Translations under genes and position numbers: made by a program | Part shown: positions 10,351 to 16,973 of the stretch, in pieces | Position numbering within the stretch: the stretch's first letter is position 1 | Layout: every line of letters starts with the position of its first letter | Assembly: GCA_025937835.1 (NCBI GenBank) | Contig: JAICQO010000006.1 | Location: 1 to 64,000 of the forward strand | Reading direction: 5' to 3' | DNA length: 64,000 nucleotides | DNA from: Polyangiaceae bacterium | GTDB taxonomy: Bacteria; Myxococcota_A; Polyangia; Polyangiales; Polyangiaceae | Notes under the pieces: model-generated | Told to the model about the DNA's origin: nothing | Seen by the model: the letters and a program-made list of their open reading frames with translations, nothing else | Database searches by the model: none

Positions 10351-11271
10351 TTGAGTGAGTACGCGATCCTAAAGCTTCCGGGCGTCAGAGTCCCGGAAAA
10401 CCGCGAACCCCTCGGGAGCAAGCAGAAGCTTTGGTGGCACGACCCGACCGGGAACGAGCCACGCTTGCTGTTCAAGCACAACAGGCCGGGCACGGGAGAA
10501 GACTGGTCGGAGAAGCTCGCCGCAGAGCTCGCCCAAGAACTCGGCCTTCCACATGCGCGCGTGGAGCTGGCGTGCGTCGACGGCTCGTCGGGCGCTGCCA
10601 TCTTTGACTTTACGGACAATGGACAGACTGCGCTCGTGCACGGCAACGAGCTACTGGAAGTCGTGGATCCCGAATACCCGAAGGAGAAGCGTCGTCGAGC
10701 CCGCGAATACACCATCGCTGCGGTGCACAACGTACTCGCTCGTCCAGGCGTCGGCCTACCCCCCGCTCCAATCCCATTTCCCGCCGAGGTCATCGACGCC
10801 TTCGGCGTCTTCCTGGGCTACCTGATGCTGGACGCCTGGATCGGAAACACCGATCGCCATCACGAGAACTGGGGGCTGCTGTGGCGCGGAGAGGGAGCCC
10901 CTCGACCCCTCACGCTTGCTCCCAGCTTTGACCACGCTTCCTCCCTCGGCCGCGAACTGACCGACGACAAGCGCACGCGAGAGGGCGATAGCTCCCAGGG
11001 TACGCCGACCGACCGCTACGCGCGGCGGGCGAAGTCGGCCTTTTGCGCAAGCACCGACGGCGGTCGCCCACTTCTGACGTGGGAAGCGTTCCAGACGGCG
11101 GGTGCGCTTCGCCCCGAGGCAGCAGCGGCATGGCTGGCGCGGTTGCGCGCAGTGACGCCGGAAACGGTTCGAGAGACGGTCGAACGCGTGCCGGGAACCC
11201 GGATGAGTGCCGTGGCCAAGGCCTTCGCTTGCACGCTGCTCCAGTGCAATGCCAAGCTCCTGGGCGCGTGA
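10351..11271 (+). CDS. HipA-like kinase domain protein
   Basis: The 306-residue protein resembles the catalytic part of HipA/HipT-type Ser/Thr kinases. It has a candidate ATP-binding Lys in LLFKHN (Lys42), the catalytic-loop signature IGNTDRHHENWGLL (Asp168, Asn173) and a metal-binding Asp in APSFDH (Asp194). It lacks the HipA N-terminal subdomain 1, which instead appears in the next gene. The start is TTG at 10351, giving MSEYAILKLPG; no strong Shine-Dalgarno is visible. Its stop shares one base with the ATG of the HIRAN gene (TGATG). In HipA families such kinases phosphorylate tRNA synthetases and act as toxins; that role here is inference. No HipB-type DNA-binding protein lies beside it. 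Confidence 0.8.
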   Translation: MSEYAILKLPGVRVPENREPLGSKQKLWWHDPTGNEPRLLFKHNRPGTGEDWSEKLAAELAQELGLPHARVELACVDGSSGAAIFDFTDNGQTALVHGNELLEVVDPEYPKEKRRRAREYTIAAVHNVLARPGVGLPPAPIPFPAEVIDAFGVFLGYLMLDAWIGNTDRHHENWGLLWRGEGAPRPLTLAPSFDHASSLGRELTDDKRTREGDSSQGTPTDRYARRAKSAFCASTDGGRPLLTWEAFQTAGALRPEAAAAWLARLRAVTPETVRETVERVPGTRMSAVAKAFACTLLQCNAKLLGA

Positions 11272-12068
11272 TGACCTCGGCGTACGAACCCCCTGCCCTC
11301 TTCGTCAATTGGCAAGACGAAGGCTCGCGCCGCATCTTTCCGGTCGGGCGTCTGCTGGCGCTCGCGGCGGGAGGCTACGAGTTCGCTTACATCGCGGCCG
11401 CGCGAGACGCGCAGCAACTCGGCTTTGCTCCGTTTCAGGCGTTTCCGGACCTCGAGCATGTCTACCAGACGCAAGACCTCCCGGCCTTCTTTCAGAACCG
11501 GTTGCTGCAGCCGGGTCGCCCGGACTATCCGCAGTACCTGCAGGAACTTGGTCTGGAATCTGCGACCGCGACACCGGTGAAGATTTTGGCGCGTAGCGGC
11601 GGCCGTCGGGTGACCGATCCTCTCGAAGTCTTTGCCGAGTTCGTGCCGTCTGCCGATCGCCTCGAAGCCCACTTCTTCGTCCGCGGCATTCGCCATCAGG
11701 TGGGCGCCGAAGAGGCGGTTGGCGAGCTGCGCCCCGGCGACGAGCTGCACCTGAAACCCGAGCCCACGAACGCGATCAACGCGAAGGCCCATCTGCTGCT
11801 CTGCCGCGACGGCCGCGCGGTGGGCTACGTGCCGGACTACTTGACCGACGACCTCAGCGAGCTGGTTGAGCTCGACCCATCGCTCAAGGTCGAGACCGTG
11901 CGCGTCAATGCCTCTCCGGCCCCGTCCCAGCAGCGCCTGCTCTGCAAGCTGAGCATCTCGTCCGCGGCCCCGCCCCCACATCGCGGGCCGCGCTTCGAGC
12001 CGATTGCGCCGAACGCGACTCGCTTGGACAGAGCAACGGGTGGGACGTTGCAACGTCGGACTGCCTGA
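11271..12068 (+). CDS. HipA N-subdomain-like plus HIRAN domain protein
   Basis: The 265-residue protein appears to have two parts. Residues ~10-95 (PVGRLLAL, then YEFAYI, a PDLEHVY turn, FFQNRLLQPGRPDY) resemble the HipA N-terminal subdomain 1. Residues ~134-205 fit a HIRAN domain (FFVRGIRHQ, then ELHLKPEPTNAINAKAH, and AVGYVPDYL). HIRAN domains bind 3' DNA ends in eukaryotic HLTF and are found standalone or fused in bacterial DNA-processing proteins. It is coupled by a one-base stop/start overlap to the HipA-like kinase, so the pair may form a split HipA-like system. The HipA-N match is by eye and less certain than the HIRAN match. Confidence 0.75.
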   Translation: MTSAYEPPALFVNWQDEGSRRIFPVGRLLALAAGGYEFAYIAAARDAQQLGFAPFQAFPDLEHVYQTQDLPAFFQNRLLQPGRPDYPQYLQELGLESATATPVKILARSGGRRVTDPLEVFAEFVPSADRLEAHFFVRGIRHQVGAEEAVGELRPGDELHLKPEPTNAINAKAHLLLCRDGRAVGYVPDYLTDDLSELVELDPSLKVETVRVNASPAPSQQRLLCKLSISSAAPPPHRGPRFEPIAPNATRLDRATGGTLQRRTA

Positions 12069-12150: not shown

Positions 12151-12717
12151 ATGATCCCCGATCCAGACCCCGAAGCCGCAATCAATCGCACCTATCCAGG
12201 CCTTCAGCTCTTCGCGCGAGACGTCAATTTATCTCGGGACCTGGCAGAGATCTACCGGCCCGGGTTGGTGTTACGCGAACGAGGGTTCACCGACGCCACG
12301 CCGCGACTCGGCGGAATGGTGACGACGCACCGGTTCGTGATCCTGTCGAACCACATGGCCGACGTGGACGCGCTGCTCGATTCCGAACCAGAGGCGCCCG
12401 ACGCCGAACGGCCAAACTGGATGCTCCACATCGCTCGGCGTGACTCGCACTTCAGGGTGCTGGGTCAGCACGAGTTCGAGGGCAAGACGCTGATCTTCCT
12501 GCTCCACCTACCGGACGACGACGACTGGAAACTGCTCGCCGAAGTCTCCGTCAACATCGACGCCCCGCTTCTGGCCGACGCGATCGTCCGTATGGAGCGG
12601 CGCTTGAAGCAGCAACCGGTCCCCGAAGTCACGTCCAGCGCCTGGCTCCGCCGCTGCGAGTTCCCGCTCGGCATGTCGGACGACGGCGAACTCTTCCCGC
12701 TCGAGGATGCAACCTGA
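12151..12717 (+). CDS. Hypothetical protein
   Basis: I do not recognise this 188-residue soluble protein. It is acidic, with alternating predicted strands and helices (RFVILSNHMADVDALL, TLIFLLHLPDDDDW) and no signal peptide or membrane segment. ATG at 12151 has a GAGG sequence about 9 nt upstream. It lies 82 bp after the HIRAN gene on the same strand and ends 6 bp before the tail of the convergent HNH-STAND gene, so it sits inside the probable accessory island. It could be a third component of the HipA/HIRAN unit or an independent gene. Confidence 0.6.
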   Translation: MIPDPDPEAAINRTYPGLQLFARDVNLSRDLAEIYRPGLVLRERGFTDATPRLGGMVTTHRFVILSNHMADVDALLDSEPEAPDAERPNWMLHIARRDSHFRVLGQHEFEGKTLIFLLHLPDDDDWKLLAEVSVNIDAPLLADAIVRMERRLKQQPVPEVTSSAWLRRCEFPLGMSDDGELFPLEDAT

Positions 12718-12723
12718 CGCCGT

Positions 12724-15605
12724 TCATCGGCGAGCTGAGTCGATTTCATCGAGCGCGCCGCGAGCACCGTATAGGTCGAGCGCCAGCAGCTGCTCGAACA
12801 GGTCCAACCCTTGCTCGCGGAGGCCCGGCATGCGTTGCAGGGTCAGGGCCGTGTTCACGAGCTCGCCCGCAGAAAATCCTATCCGCATCGAATCGGGGTC
12901 CTTCGCCAGCGCGGACAGGAGCGACGTGAGGAGCTGGTGCACGGATGCCGGCTCCGCGTGCACGAGCGTGGAGAGCCACGAGATTAGGTCGTTGGAACAT
13001 TCAACAGTCACCGGCTCGGCTCTAGTAGCAAACGCTTGAAGGACTTCGCGGGCTAGATCGTCGACGCCGACATCGTCGTGGGCAAGACGCTTGAGGACGA
13101 TCTCGTCGATGGCGGGCTGCTGAAGACGAACCAGATCACAGAGATACGGGCAAGCGCGCGCACGCCTGGCAGGATCCCGCCACAGATCCGCGGTCAACTC
13201 TGCTGCGCCCAGCAGCTGACTCGGATCGTGAGGACTGGCGATGATCTGTCGCAGATCATGCTCCGCCCACGGCAGCGGCTGACGTCGGATAGCGAACAGC
13301 GCCGTCAGCTCGCCGACGGCTTCCGCGGCGTGCTCCCACGCGCTTCGAGCCAGCAGATCGAGCCAGGTCTTCACCACCGACGGATCGGCCCACCACCCGG
13401 CCCACGCAAGCGACGTGACTCCGGCGCGACACTCCAGAGCCTCGGGGTACCGACGGAACAACTCCGCGATGAATTCACTCGCGCTGCTCTTATCGCAGTG
13501 TCGAAGGTGCTCGAGGCGATGAGCGAAAGCTCTCCACGCAATCGGTTCCTCGTCTCGCTGCACATGCTCTTGCAGCACACTCATCAACTCCGCCGTTCGC
13601 GGCGGTTTCGCGGACAAGAGTGCCACGAGAAGCGCGTCGAGCACGTTGAAGTTGCCGGCTGGCAGGGCGAAGATCCCGCCCCCTCCCAGCAAGAAGGGAG
13701 GCGAACCCTCATTCCTATCCGAGGTGAGCGCCGGTTTGGTGCGCGCGCCGACAGGTATTTCCGCCAGCCAGCCCCGAAGCATGTTGACGATGAACTCCGG
13801 CAATCCTTCCCCGCTATCAGCACGCCGAGCTAGGGCCCGGGCCGCATCGTCCCTAAACTCCCCGGACGAGAACCCGCGAGCGTTGCAGCTCCTCACCAGC
13901 TCGCAGAAATCCGAGGTGGGCATGTCGGTTTCGGACAGCGCGGAAATGGCGAGCGCGACCGGGATCTCGTTGCGCTCGGGCGCCAGTTGATCGATCAGCG
14001 CCACTGCGCGCCCGGGCAGCTTCTTCGCCAGCGTCGCGAGCTCGCGCCCGGCCTCGATGGCTCCCCCGTCCATGATGCGTTTGGGGTGCTGGAATCCAGT
14101 GCTGTCGGGAAGGTCTTCGAACAACTGCAATACGTGGTTGTCTTCCGCGGCTGCCATCTGCTCAGCGGACATGGGGCTACCGATGCGCTTGACTTCGGTC
14201 AATCCCCTGACGCGCCCATTCTCGCCGAATACACGCGCTTCTTGTTCGATCTGAGATCGCGTCCGGTCGCTCAACATCGCGGCTGGCAGCGCTTGAAGGA
14301 GCCGGAGCCGGTGTTCGCGATTGATCATCCGAGCAGCCCGCCGCGCGGTTACGGGCCGGGCAAGGGACTGTGACGACGGCTCGGAAGCGTGAATCGCCGT
14401 CTCGAGGGCACCCGCATCCTCTGCGCTCACGGTGTCGCGGATGCTCTGGAGTAGAGCGATCGAGCGTGCGTCCGGATCACCGGCTTCGCCGAGCTTCAGG
14501 CGTCGAGGATCGGCCAGAAGGTAGGCCGCGACACTGCGAGAATCGGCCGGCCCGAGCCGTTCGTAGCCGTACGACAGAATGACATGAATCGTTTGCAGCT
14601 CGCTGGTTGCCCATTCGGAGCAGAGGATCAGGAACTTCGCGGGATCGACGCGAGCGAGCGCTTCACTTGCCGCTCGAAGCGCCTGCGGTAGTTCTCGCGA
14701 CGGACCAACCCGGTGGGAACAATCACAGATGTGGTCCGCTAGGTATGCCGGATGCCATTCATCTGCTTCCGCTGCGTGGCTCAAGACCGCCGCGACCCAC
14801 GGCAGGAAAGCCCGAAGGAAAGTCTCCGGTTCGGCCTCCGCGAGCTCCACGAGCACATGAATGGCCGAGGAGGCGGACTGGAAGATGTCTCGAATCGTCT
14901 TCAAGGGCTCACGATCGAGGTACCAACGCAGCCACGCGTCCTGCGGTGCATCCGGCGAAAGCGGAACCGAACGTGGGAGCGTCGGCTCTCTGGCCTTGAA
15001 GTTACGCTCGAGGAAGCGCGCGATCAGCTCGATCGCGTGGCCCGGCGCCTTGCCCTTCAGCTGCCAAGCAAAAGCGTCCAGCACTTGCTCGGGGTGGGCG
15101 GCGTGTTGCAGGGCGGCGTCGAGCAGATCACGAGCCTGCTCTGTCCAATCCTCGAGGCCCCTCAGGGCTCCCACCACGAGCTCGGCGTGTTCGGCGCTCC
15201 CACCCCAGTGGCGAGCCATCAGCGTTAGCGTCTCGTCGGGATCCAGCTTCAGCGACGCCGCGATCGCCGCGTAGGTTGCGTTCGGGCGATCTCCGACCAT
15301 GCAACGCTGCAGGACGCCGCTCCGGAGGTGGCGTAGCCAGCCTGCGCTTCGAGACGCCGCATTGAATGCGACAACGGCCCACCGCGAATCGAAGAATCGC
15401 GGTTGAAGTAGAGCGATCTCGAAATCGTCTGGTGGATCCGCCTGGCCGACGAACTCCATGAGGAGCATTTGCAGATGAGAGCGGCGGACGGTGTTCCAGA
15501 GAATGCTGAGGTCTTCGCGGTAGCGACTCGGTGCGACCGCTCTCAGGTGGTGGAGGGCGGCCCAGATAGTGGGCCGTACGAACAACGAGTCTGATGTTCC
15601 GACAC
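12724..15605 (-). CDS. STAND-like protein, C-terminal helical part (frameshifted from N-part)
   Basis: About 960 residues of uninterrupted coding sequence continue the HNH-STAND protein in a different frame. The N-terminal gene part reads YEFARARAFVQNKRLSDYV, and this frame picks up at about SLFVRPTIWAALHHL, the normal continuation after a STAND/NACHT winged-helix region. The remainder is a long array of amphipathic helices (Leu/Ala/Glu-rich, no membrane segments), as in the superstructure-forming sensors of Avs-type proteins. The 5' boundary given is the approximate switch point, not a start codon. One base appears to be missing near 15605 relative to an intact gene; it may be a mutation or a sequencing error. 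The frame ends 6 bp from the convergent 188-residue gene. Confidence 0.65.
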
Positions 15606-16973
15606 GTAGTCCGACAACCGTTTGTTCTGCACGAAGGCTCGCGCCCTCGCGAATTCGTACAAAGTCTGGTGCGCGAAACTGATGCGAAGCCGCGCAGGAT
15701 CGGACACCAAGATGCCCAACGCCAACAGCCGTTGAACGACCGCCTCGTCGGACGTGAGCTCGGCTCGAGGGATCCACAGCTCTTCCCGATCCGCGACCAT
15801 CTCGGCGATCCGGCTTGCAATCGCATCGTTCTCGGCGGCGTCCGCGGGCTGCCGGAGCACCGTCTGCTCCCAAACGACACCGAGAAGCGCCTGCGATGTG
15901 TCCGGTACGGGTGCGGTGACGAGCCACGTGAGCTGGACGAACTGCTTGAGCCAATGCGGAATCGAAAGCAATGATTTCAGCTTCTGCCCGACGCGGGCCG
16001 TGTCGATCCCTCGGCTCACGAGAACCTCCTCCACGTCGGATGCAGCGAGCGGCGCCAGGCGAAGCTCGTCTGCGGCGAGCCCCAAGAACCTGGTGTCGTG
16101 CTTGAAATCGAACTCCCGCACGGAGCACACCACCGGGATCCCCGAAGCCTTGACGCTCGAGATCAAAGAGAGCAGCACCGCCAAGCGTTCGGTCTTGGCG
16201 TCGGCCAAGTCGGCGAGCGCATCGAGCTGGTCGACGAGTAGAACGGTCTTCGCGTTCCGGCTGAGGGCATACATTGCCCGCGAGACTGGCAGTTCGAGGT
16301 CGAGGTAGTGCTGCAAGTCGCTCGCCGTTGCCACCGAGCTCGGAAGCCGGTCGGCCTTGATCGCAACGACGTTCCATCCTTCGTTACGCAGGTCGCACCC
16401 AAGTCGGGCCAGGAACGCAGACTTTCCAGACCCAGGCGGTCCAAGTAGGGCGAGCACGCCAGCCTCGGCCTGCTGGATGAACTCGCGAACGCGATCCATC
16501 TCGGGACGAGTCAGCCACGTGCCACCGGGCAGCGACTGCGGATGTTCCAGCAGCTCGGTCGCGGCGGCCAAGAGTCCTGCAGCCGACCTCGTCACGATCG
16601 GCTGCGCCATACGGAGATCTGCGGCTCGTTCCGCCTGGGCCTTCCAGGATTTCAACAACTCGGCGGGGAAGCGAACCTCGTCAACGTCCACCTCCGCGGC
16701 GTGGTTGGAGCACAACCAGATCCCGTTGGCAGCATCGCGACGTTGCTCTGGCGTTTGGGTCTCGTCGAAGCGAGGTCCGCCTTTCGCCGCTGCGTGGATG
16801 TGACACGCCTTACCGATACTGCGCGCTTTGTTCTCTTCGGTATGCGGGCCCTTGGTGGGCTGCATGCAATCCGGTCGGGAGCACCAGGAACCGACCCGGT
16901 CGGCCAGGGCGCGTTTGACGGACTCTGGAAATTCATCGCGGCCTCGAGTCCGCGCATTCCTCGCTCTAGCCAC
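15543..16973 (-). CDS. HNH nuclease-STAND NTPase, N-terminal part (frameshifted)
   Basis: Residues ~28-112 form an HNH-type endonuclease: a zinc knuckle WCSRPDC (Cys31, Cys36), CHIHAAAKGGPR (His58, His60) and NGIWLCSNHAAEVD (Asn83, Cys88, His91). Residues ~165-330 are a P-loop NTPase with Walker A GPPGSGKS (178-185) and Walker B TVLLVDQLDAL. A winged-helix-like segment follows, ending in FAHQTLYEFARARAF. The frame stops at 15543 after a short non-homologous tail, while the protein logically continues in the minus-strand frame ending at 12724. The full architecture of nuclease, STAND ATPase and long helical sensor resembles antiphage Avs-type proteins; the defence role is inferred. Start is GTG at 16973, overlapping an upstream small ORF by 8 bp. 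Confidence 0.8.
   Translation of the reverse strand: MARARNARTRGRDEFPESVKRALADRVGSWCSRPDCMQPTKGPHTEENKARSIGKACHIHAAAKGGPRFDETQTPEQRRDAANGIWLCSNHAAEVDVDEVRFPAELLKSWKAQAERAADLRMAQPIVTRSAAGLLAAATELLEHPQSLPGGTWLTRPEMDRVREFIQQAEAGVLALLGPPGSGKSAFLARLGCDLRNEGWNVVAIKADRLPSSVATASDLQHYLDLELPVSRAMYALSRNAKTVLLVDQLDALADLADAKTERLAVLLSLISSVKASGIPVVCSVREFDFKHDTRFLGLAADELRLAPLAASDVEEVLVSRGIDTARVGQKLKSLLSIPHWLKQFVQLTWLVTAPVPDTSQALLGVVWEQTVLRQPADAAENDAIASRIAEMVADREELWIPRAELTSDEAVVQRLLALGILVSDPARLRISFAHQTLYEFARARAFVQNKRLSDYVSEHQTRCSYGPLSGPPSTT

Follow-up and report, generated by a model that had tools for sequence, protein, structure and literature searches.

A frameshifted HNH-NACHT-solenoid gene of a Polyangiaceae bacterium as a candidate NLR-type antiphage sensor

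One of the closest described systems is bNACHT25 (clade 6), a bacterial protein in which a PD-(D/E)xK DNase is followed by a NACHT module and an NCH1 region, and which degrades DNA on phage infection (PMC12169576). A similar tripartite layout, with an effector, a STAND NTPase and a sensor, characterises the Avs/AVAST types 1-5, whose effectors are swappable. That STAND proteins and related conflict systems exchange their effectors, HNH and PNP among them, is already known (PMC8195603).

Here we analyse a gene at positions 12724 to 16973 of a 64,000-nucleotide stretch of a Polyangiaceae genome (GenBank GCA_025937835.1, contig JAICQO010000006.1, positions 1 to 64,000), referred to as the window. 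An earlier note, made from the sequence alone, had read this gene as a protein of about 1,400 residues that runs from an HNH nuclease with a zinc knuckle through a P-loop STAND NTPase with Walker A and B motifs to some 960 residues of helical repeat, and had called it an Avs-like defence candidate of no recognised subtype. The domains and their order are confirmed by domain matches and structural models, while the Avs assignment holds only in part. We consider it probable that the gene, here broken by a frameshift, belongs to the NLR-type immune sensors of bacteria (NACHT-clade STAND proteins) and has a DNase as its effector, and that the intact protein would be antiphage and act by abortive infection.

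The frameshifted gene and its three domains

Two frames of the minus strand, read from 16973 to 12724, would together encode a protein of about 1,415 amino acids, with HNH, NACHT/STAND NTPase and helical sensor regions. The first is a 476-amino acid ORF (P0001) that starts with GTG at 16973, ends at 15543 and carries the HNH domain and the NTPase; the second (P0002) is open up to the stop at 12724 and carries the C-terminal region. In 300 base shuffles of the region the longest open stretch never exceeded 387 amino acids, so open stretches of the size observed are not due to chance. Codon-position GC puts the frame switch between about 15,774 and 15,474, and alignment places the break where the residues upstream correspond to the winged-helix end of the homologues and those downstream to their next conserved motif, LFVRP. 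Because homologues are single ORFs across this join, we treat the two frames as one gene with a frameshift, which is present in a single copy in the host genome. Its features, with the evidence for each in brackets, are as follows.

12724..16973, minus strand: whole gene, HNH - NACHT/STAND NTPase - helical sensor, frameshifted (ORFs, homologue alignment, codon-position GC)
16599..16940, minus strand: HNH endonuclease module of CBASS Cap5 / SAVED-HNH type, P0001 residues 12-125 (PADLOC matches; conserved Cys31/Cys36, His58, Asn83, Cys88)
15624..16541, minus strand: NACHT-clade STAND NTPase with helical and winged-helix subdomains, P0001 residues 145-450 (Pfam, AlphaFold model, fold comparison)
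16419..16442, minus strand: Walker A, GPPGSGKS, residues 178-185 (sequence motif, alignment)
16221..16241, minus strand: Walker B, LLVDQLD, residues 245-251 (sequence motif, alignment)
15669..15677, minus strand: winged-helix FxH motif, F433-A-H435, part of the FxHQ motif (alignment)
15588..15612, minus strand: frameshift from the NTPase frame to the sensor frame (alignment to relatives, open across the join in homologues; codon-position GC)
12727..15588, minus strand: ARM/HEAT-type alpha-solenoid, presumed sensor (49-sequence alignment, AlphaFold, fold search)

The HNH module (residues 12-125) matches the PADLOC models PDC-M68A (E 5e-23), CBASS endonuclease effectors (E 1.5e-14) and SAVED-HNH (E 3e-13), and by sequence also the solved HNH/SAVED proteins 9om4, 8ysq and 7rwm, with the catalytic His and Asn aligned. 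Seven aligned relatives all share Cys31, Cys36, His58, Asn83, Cys88 and Asp96, and the window protein has every one of them, including the zinc knuckle (Cys31/Cys36) and the catalytic His and Asn of the Cap5-type HNH; since these active-site residues are both conserved and present, the nuclease looks competent, as judged from its residues. The chance, raised in the earlier note, that close relatives lack the HNH residues is thereby removed. Pfam finds no SAVED domain in the protein, and residues 145-458 are NACHT instead. The HNH module is mobile: within the phylum, on plasmids and in contigs classed as viral it stands alone or is fused to varied partners. One such protein, of 1,301 amino acids (L038:5038-8943), has the same HNH type fused to an SNF2-type helicase. 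Another, encoded on a Methylocystis plasmid (L145:7007-11347, WP_165056038.1), carries it on a different STAND-like ATPase with a long C-terminal region, and a relative on a plasmid of Rhizobium sp. BT04 has its HNH part split off.

The NTPase exceeds the curated Pfam cut-offs for both nSTAND1 (33.9 bits, cut-off 27.1) and NACHT (29.3 bits, cut-off 26.7). All 51 sequences compared, that of the window included, have Walker A Lys184, Walker B Asp248 and Asp251, Arg286 after strand 4, Pro339 and His435 of the winged helix; the FxHQ motif to which His435 belongs is typical of STAND/NACHT proteins. The AlphaFold model of this frame has a mean pLDDT of 86.4 and, when residues 124-458 were compared with solved structures by VIA-align, superimposed on NLRP9 with a Z of 23.4 (rmsd 3.7 over 317 residues). 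The Z scores were similar for NLRP3 (23.4), NLRC4 (23.2) and NOD2 (22.4), the matches to these four NLRs spanning 312-323 residues, and lower for Apaf-1 (16.4) and Avs4 (15.4), so that the NTPase as modelled is nearer to the NACHT NLRs than to Avs4. The NACHT fold, the Pfam matches and the invariant STAND motifs together exclude an unrelated AAA family, which the earlier note had named as one finding that would overturn its reading, and the NTPase is a true STAND domain of the NACHT clade.

The C-terminal 961 residues, modelled with a 49-sequence alignment, are all helix (mean pLDDT 87.8), and a fold search likens them to ARM/HEAT solenoids such as the PP2A scaffold, importins and SF3B1, matches common to repeats of this kind, from which no function follows. 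Among the matches listed, where generic ARM/HEAT proteins dominate, there is no STAND or Avs chain. Pfam has no match in the approximately 950-residue solenoid; the 2023 PADLOC library yielded no useful model for 49 such sensors, apart from one weak Cas4c match, and a sensor-only profile found no solved chain at a meaningful level. With the NTPase included, the profile picks up a single distant relative of solved structure, 9n00, whose C-terminal part is matched weakly as well. The helical C-terminus is presumed to be the sensor. Structure prediction, which the earlier note had proposed for the frame-corrected protein, gives a NACHT-NLR fold for the NTPase and an ARM/HEAT-type solenoid for the C-terminus.

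Constant NTPase and sensor, exchanged effectors

An alignment-based scan of 84,980 species genomes yielded 80 kept loci; a genome-contig scan with P0001 alone found no relative, probably since short exact patterns of a divergent protein fail. At least 54 of the loci are full-length homologues, defined as NTPase and sensor in one ORF with a sensor score of at least 100 bits (a few are cut by contig ends). These are spread over about ten phyla, namely Nitrospirota, Nitrospinota, Planctomycetota, Cyanobacteriota, Pseudomonadota, Acidobacteriota, Myxococcota, Verrucomicrobiota, Bacillota and Thermodesulfobacteriota. Three family members (L030, L094 and L104) are themselves frame-interrupted, each elsewhere in the gene.

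The NTPase and sensor are common to the family, mostly at 26-34% identity, and the N-terminal effector is swapped. PNP phosphorylase, DUF4062, alpha/beta-hydrolase, TIR, SEFIR, CHAT, PD-(D/E)xK, Mrr and two other HNH types are found in this position. By Pfam the counts are PNP_UDP 11, DUF4062 7, alpha/beta-hydrolase 6, TIR 4, HNH/HNH_5 3, CHAT 2, and one each of SEFIR, Mrr and bDLD1, the remaining effector labels resting on sequence clusters. The DUF4062-bearing members are not equated with Swarozyc, which also has DUF4062, as we found no mention of NACHT in the account of its C-terminal auxiliary domain (PMC13174449).

A tree of NTPase plus sensor, built by a quick method with a simple model, implies at least 14 effector changes and contains supported sister pairs with unlike effectors. 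One such pair joins a PNP protein (L062) to a protein with an HNH of another type (L095), and a SEFIR pair is nested in a PNP clade of cyanobacteria. The HNH protein of the first pair (L095:9077-13990) is a Rhizobiales family member, and a Nostoc plasmid encodes a SEFIR-bearing relative whose similarity extends along 97% of the sensor. The gene of the window falls in a group with two proteins of Myxococcota, of which the first carries CHAT and the second lacks a recognisable effector (SH-aLRT 96, in the same quick tree and on long branches). The HNH type of the window occurs in none of the 80 family loci, and the exact pairing of a Cap5-type HNH with the family NACHT-solenoid was found only once, in the window.

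Among 378 other genomes of the phylum only two have sensor homologues, and the searched genomes of the same genus have no copy, a sparse spread of the kind expected of a mobile defence gene. Viral contigs contained no relative of the NTPase-sensor part and a phage collection none of the sensor, and hence there is no evidence of phages carrying the gene. We found no name for the family, the defence models compared being those of 2023, and no experiment on any member of it. The view that the protein belongs to no named subtype stands in that respect, but the protein is less isolated than had been supposed, given the other HNH types within the family and the same HNH on the Methylocystis STAND-like protein.

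Genomic setting, proposed mechanism and alternatives

Next to the gene lies a pair of candidate defence genes, which is convergent with it.

10351..11271, plus strand: HipA-like kinase, PADLOC candidate defence protein PDC-M03A, E 3.5e-91 (PADLOC)
11268..12068, plus strand: HIRAN-domain protein, PADLOC candidate PDC-M03B, E 5.3e-72 (PADLOC)
12151..12717, plus strand: 188-amino acid protein with no Pfam or PADLOC match, tail-to-tail with the STAND gene, ends 7 bases apart (ORF, Pfam, PADLOC)

The GC3 of the PDC-M03A/B genes and the STAND gene is 0.73-0.81, lower than in the majority of the window's other genes (mostly 0.82-0.93), with a codon usage unlike that of host genes, and around them lie genes of ordinary function (aldehyde dehydrogenase, GTP cyclohydrolase, uracil phosphoribosyltransferase), which together suggests that the STAND gene and its neighbours form a small acquired defence island. 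The gene for the 188-amino acid protein shares the low-GC3 stretch. The earlier note had also proposed a search for homologues of the same domain order beside other defence genes. Gabija, DRT-associated, AriA and ThsB-like genes do lie near several homologues. A crude control 7-10 kb away from the homologues also contains some defence genes, with fewer matching models, and we therefore take the support from neighbourhood to be moderate.

We hypothesise, by analogy with bNACHT25 (PMC12169576) and Avs5 (PMC12931631), that in the intact protein the helical solenoid would keep the NACHT module off. Binding of an infection-specific molecule by the solenoid, probably a conserved phage protein or a host protein altered by the phage, would then allow nucleotide exchange and oligomerisation of the NACHT module. 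Oligomerisation would cluster the N-terminal HNH domains so that they could cut DNA, and the resulting damage would kill or arrest the infected cell, as in abortive infection.

For the allele in the window, the most serious alternative is that it is a decaying pseudogene with no present function in its host, to which we give only a little less than an even chance. The frameshift does not lie at a homopolymer, the three other broken copies show that family genes do become interrupted, and no copy was found in the searched genomes of the genus, all of which favour decay; against it, there is a single lesion in 4.2 kb, all key motifs are intact, and an assembly error could also account for the break. 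The frameshift may thus be either a real mutation or an error of assembly, but as assembled the allele is probably inactive, because the break parts the sensor from the NTPase. This alternative concerns the window allele and not the family.

It is unlikely, by our estimate, that the protein is instead a STAND-based switch for conflict or cell death in multicellular or complex bacteria, triggered by plasmids, predators, kin or internal damage and not by phage. The effector set of the family (PNP, TIR, CHAT, alpha/beta-hydrolase, HNH) does resemble that of conflict systems enriched in multicellular prokaryotes (PMC8195603; PMC7159879), but Pseudomonas, Rhodanobacter, Silvimonas and Desulforamulus have family members too, and defence genes lie near several copies. 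The two readings overlap. We think it more improbable still that the protein belongs to a named Avs type and recognises terminase or portal. The domain order is the same, the fold search with the NTPase also retrieves Avs4, and the Avs2 model has a weak match, over the NTPase only, to P0009, a NACHT relative from the wider group; however, in the 2023 PADLOC library no Avs model matches P0001 or P0002 at E up to 1 or any of 49 sensors at E 0.01, and the NTPase reaches fold Z scores of 22-23 with the NACHT NLRs against 15.4 with Avs4. A programmed frameshift that joins the frames into a protein made at a regulated level is very improbable, for although coding signal persists in both frames as far as the break, almost every homologue has one uninterrupted ORF here and no slippery heptamer is evident at the junction.

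Returning to the antiphage sensor, we put forward more tentatively, as a proposal that may well prove wrong, that the NACHT-solenoid family is an unnamed, phylum-spanning type of bacterial NLR, in which the sensor, itself conserved, responds to a single conserved feature of infection and is combined with about ten interchangeable effectors, three HNH types among them, the window holding the only Cap5-type HNH version seen. A sensor conserved in dozens of distant bacteria, with a freely exchanged killing domain, would be expected of a receptor for something that phages cannot easily change. As many effectors share one sensor, culturable members with easily read outputs (DNase, NADase-like, lipase-like) could reveal the trigger; family proteins from culturable hosts include those of Rhodanobacter sp. 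T12-5 (L053, alpha/beta-hydrolase), Pseudoxanthomonas (L068, PD-(D/E)xK) and Rhizobiales (L095, HNH). The fold link to the NACHT domains of NLRP proteins and NOD2 gives a further point of comparison between bacterial and animal NLRs. The window gene alone is of lower value, because its allele is broken.

Comparison with known systems

Methylocystis sp. MJC1 WP_165056038.1 (1,446 amino acids) resembles the window protein in its HNH subfamily, its STAND-like ATPase region and the similar size of its long C-terminus, but its NTPase and sensor have no detectable similarity to those of the window, and it is probably an independent assembly of the same architecture. The sole solved protein that clearly matches the family profile, an 'AAA family ATPase' of 1,523 amino acids (PDB 9n00/9n01/9yix), does so over the NTPase and weakly over part of the C-terminus; it is distant, however, and is missed by the sensor-only profile. 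We found no paper describing 9n00. PADLOC PDC-M54A has a related NTPase, but the match is confined to that domain, and P0002, the sensor part, has none.

With CBASS Cap5 and other SAVED-HNH proteins the window protein shares its HNH module, whereas it lacks SAVED and joins the nuclease to a NACHT module and not to a cyclic-nucleotide sensor; the HNH is Cap5-like, but the whole protein is not Cap5. The Avs/AVAST types share the tripartite layout and the swappable effectors, and in this the earlier assignment was apt, since the pattern of constant sensor and exchanged effector is that of Avs and NLR-like proteins. In contrast to those types, the window protein matches no Avs1-5 model and its NTPase fold is nearer to the NACHT NLRs, and for these two reasons 'bNACHT / NLR-related' fits it better than 'Avs'. 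Like bNACHT25, it has a nuclease effector, a central NACHT-type STAND NTPase and a helical C-terminal sensor; its effector is an HNH where that of bNACHT25 is PD-(D/E)xK, and its sensor is a solenoid of about 950 residues that has no counterpart in Pfam.
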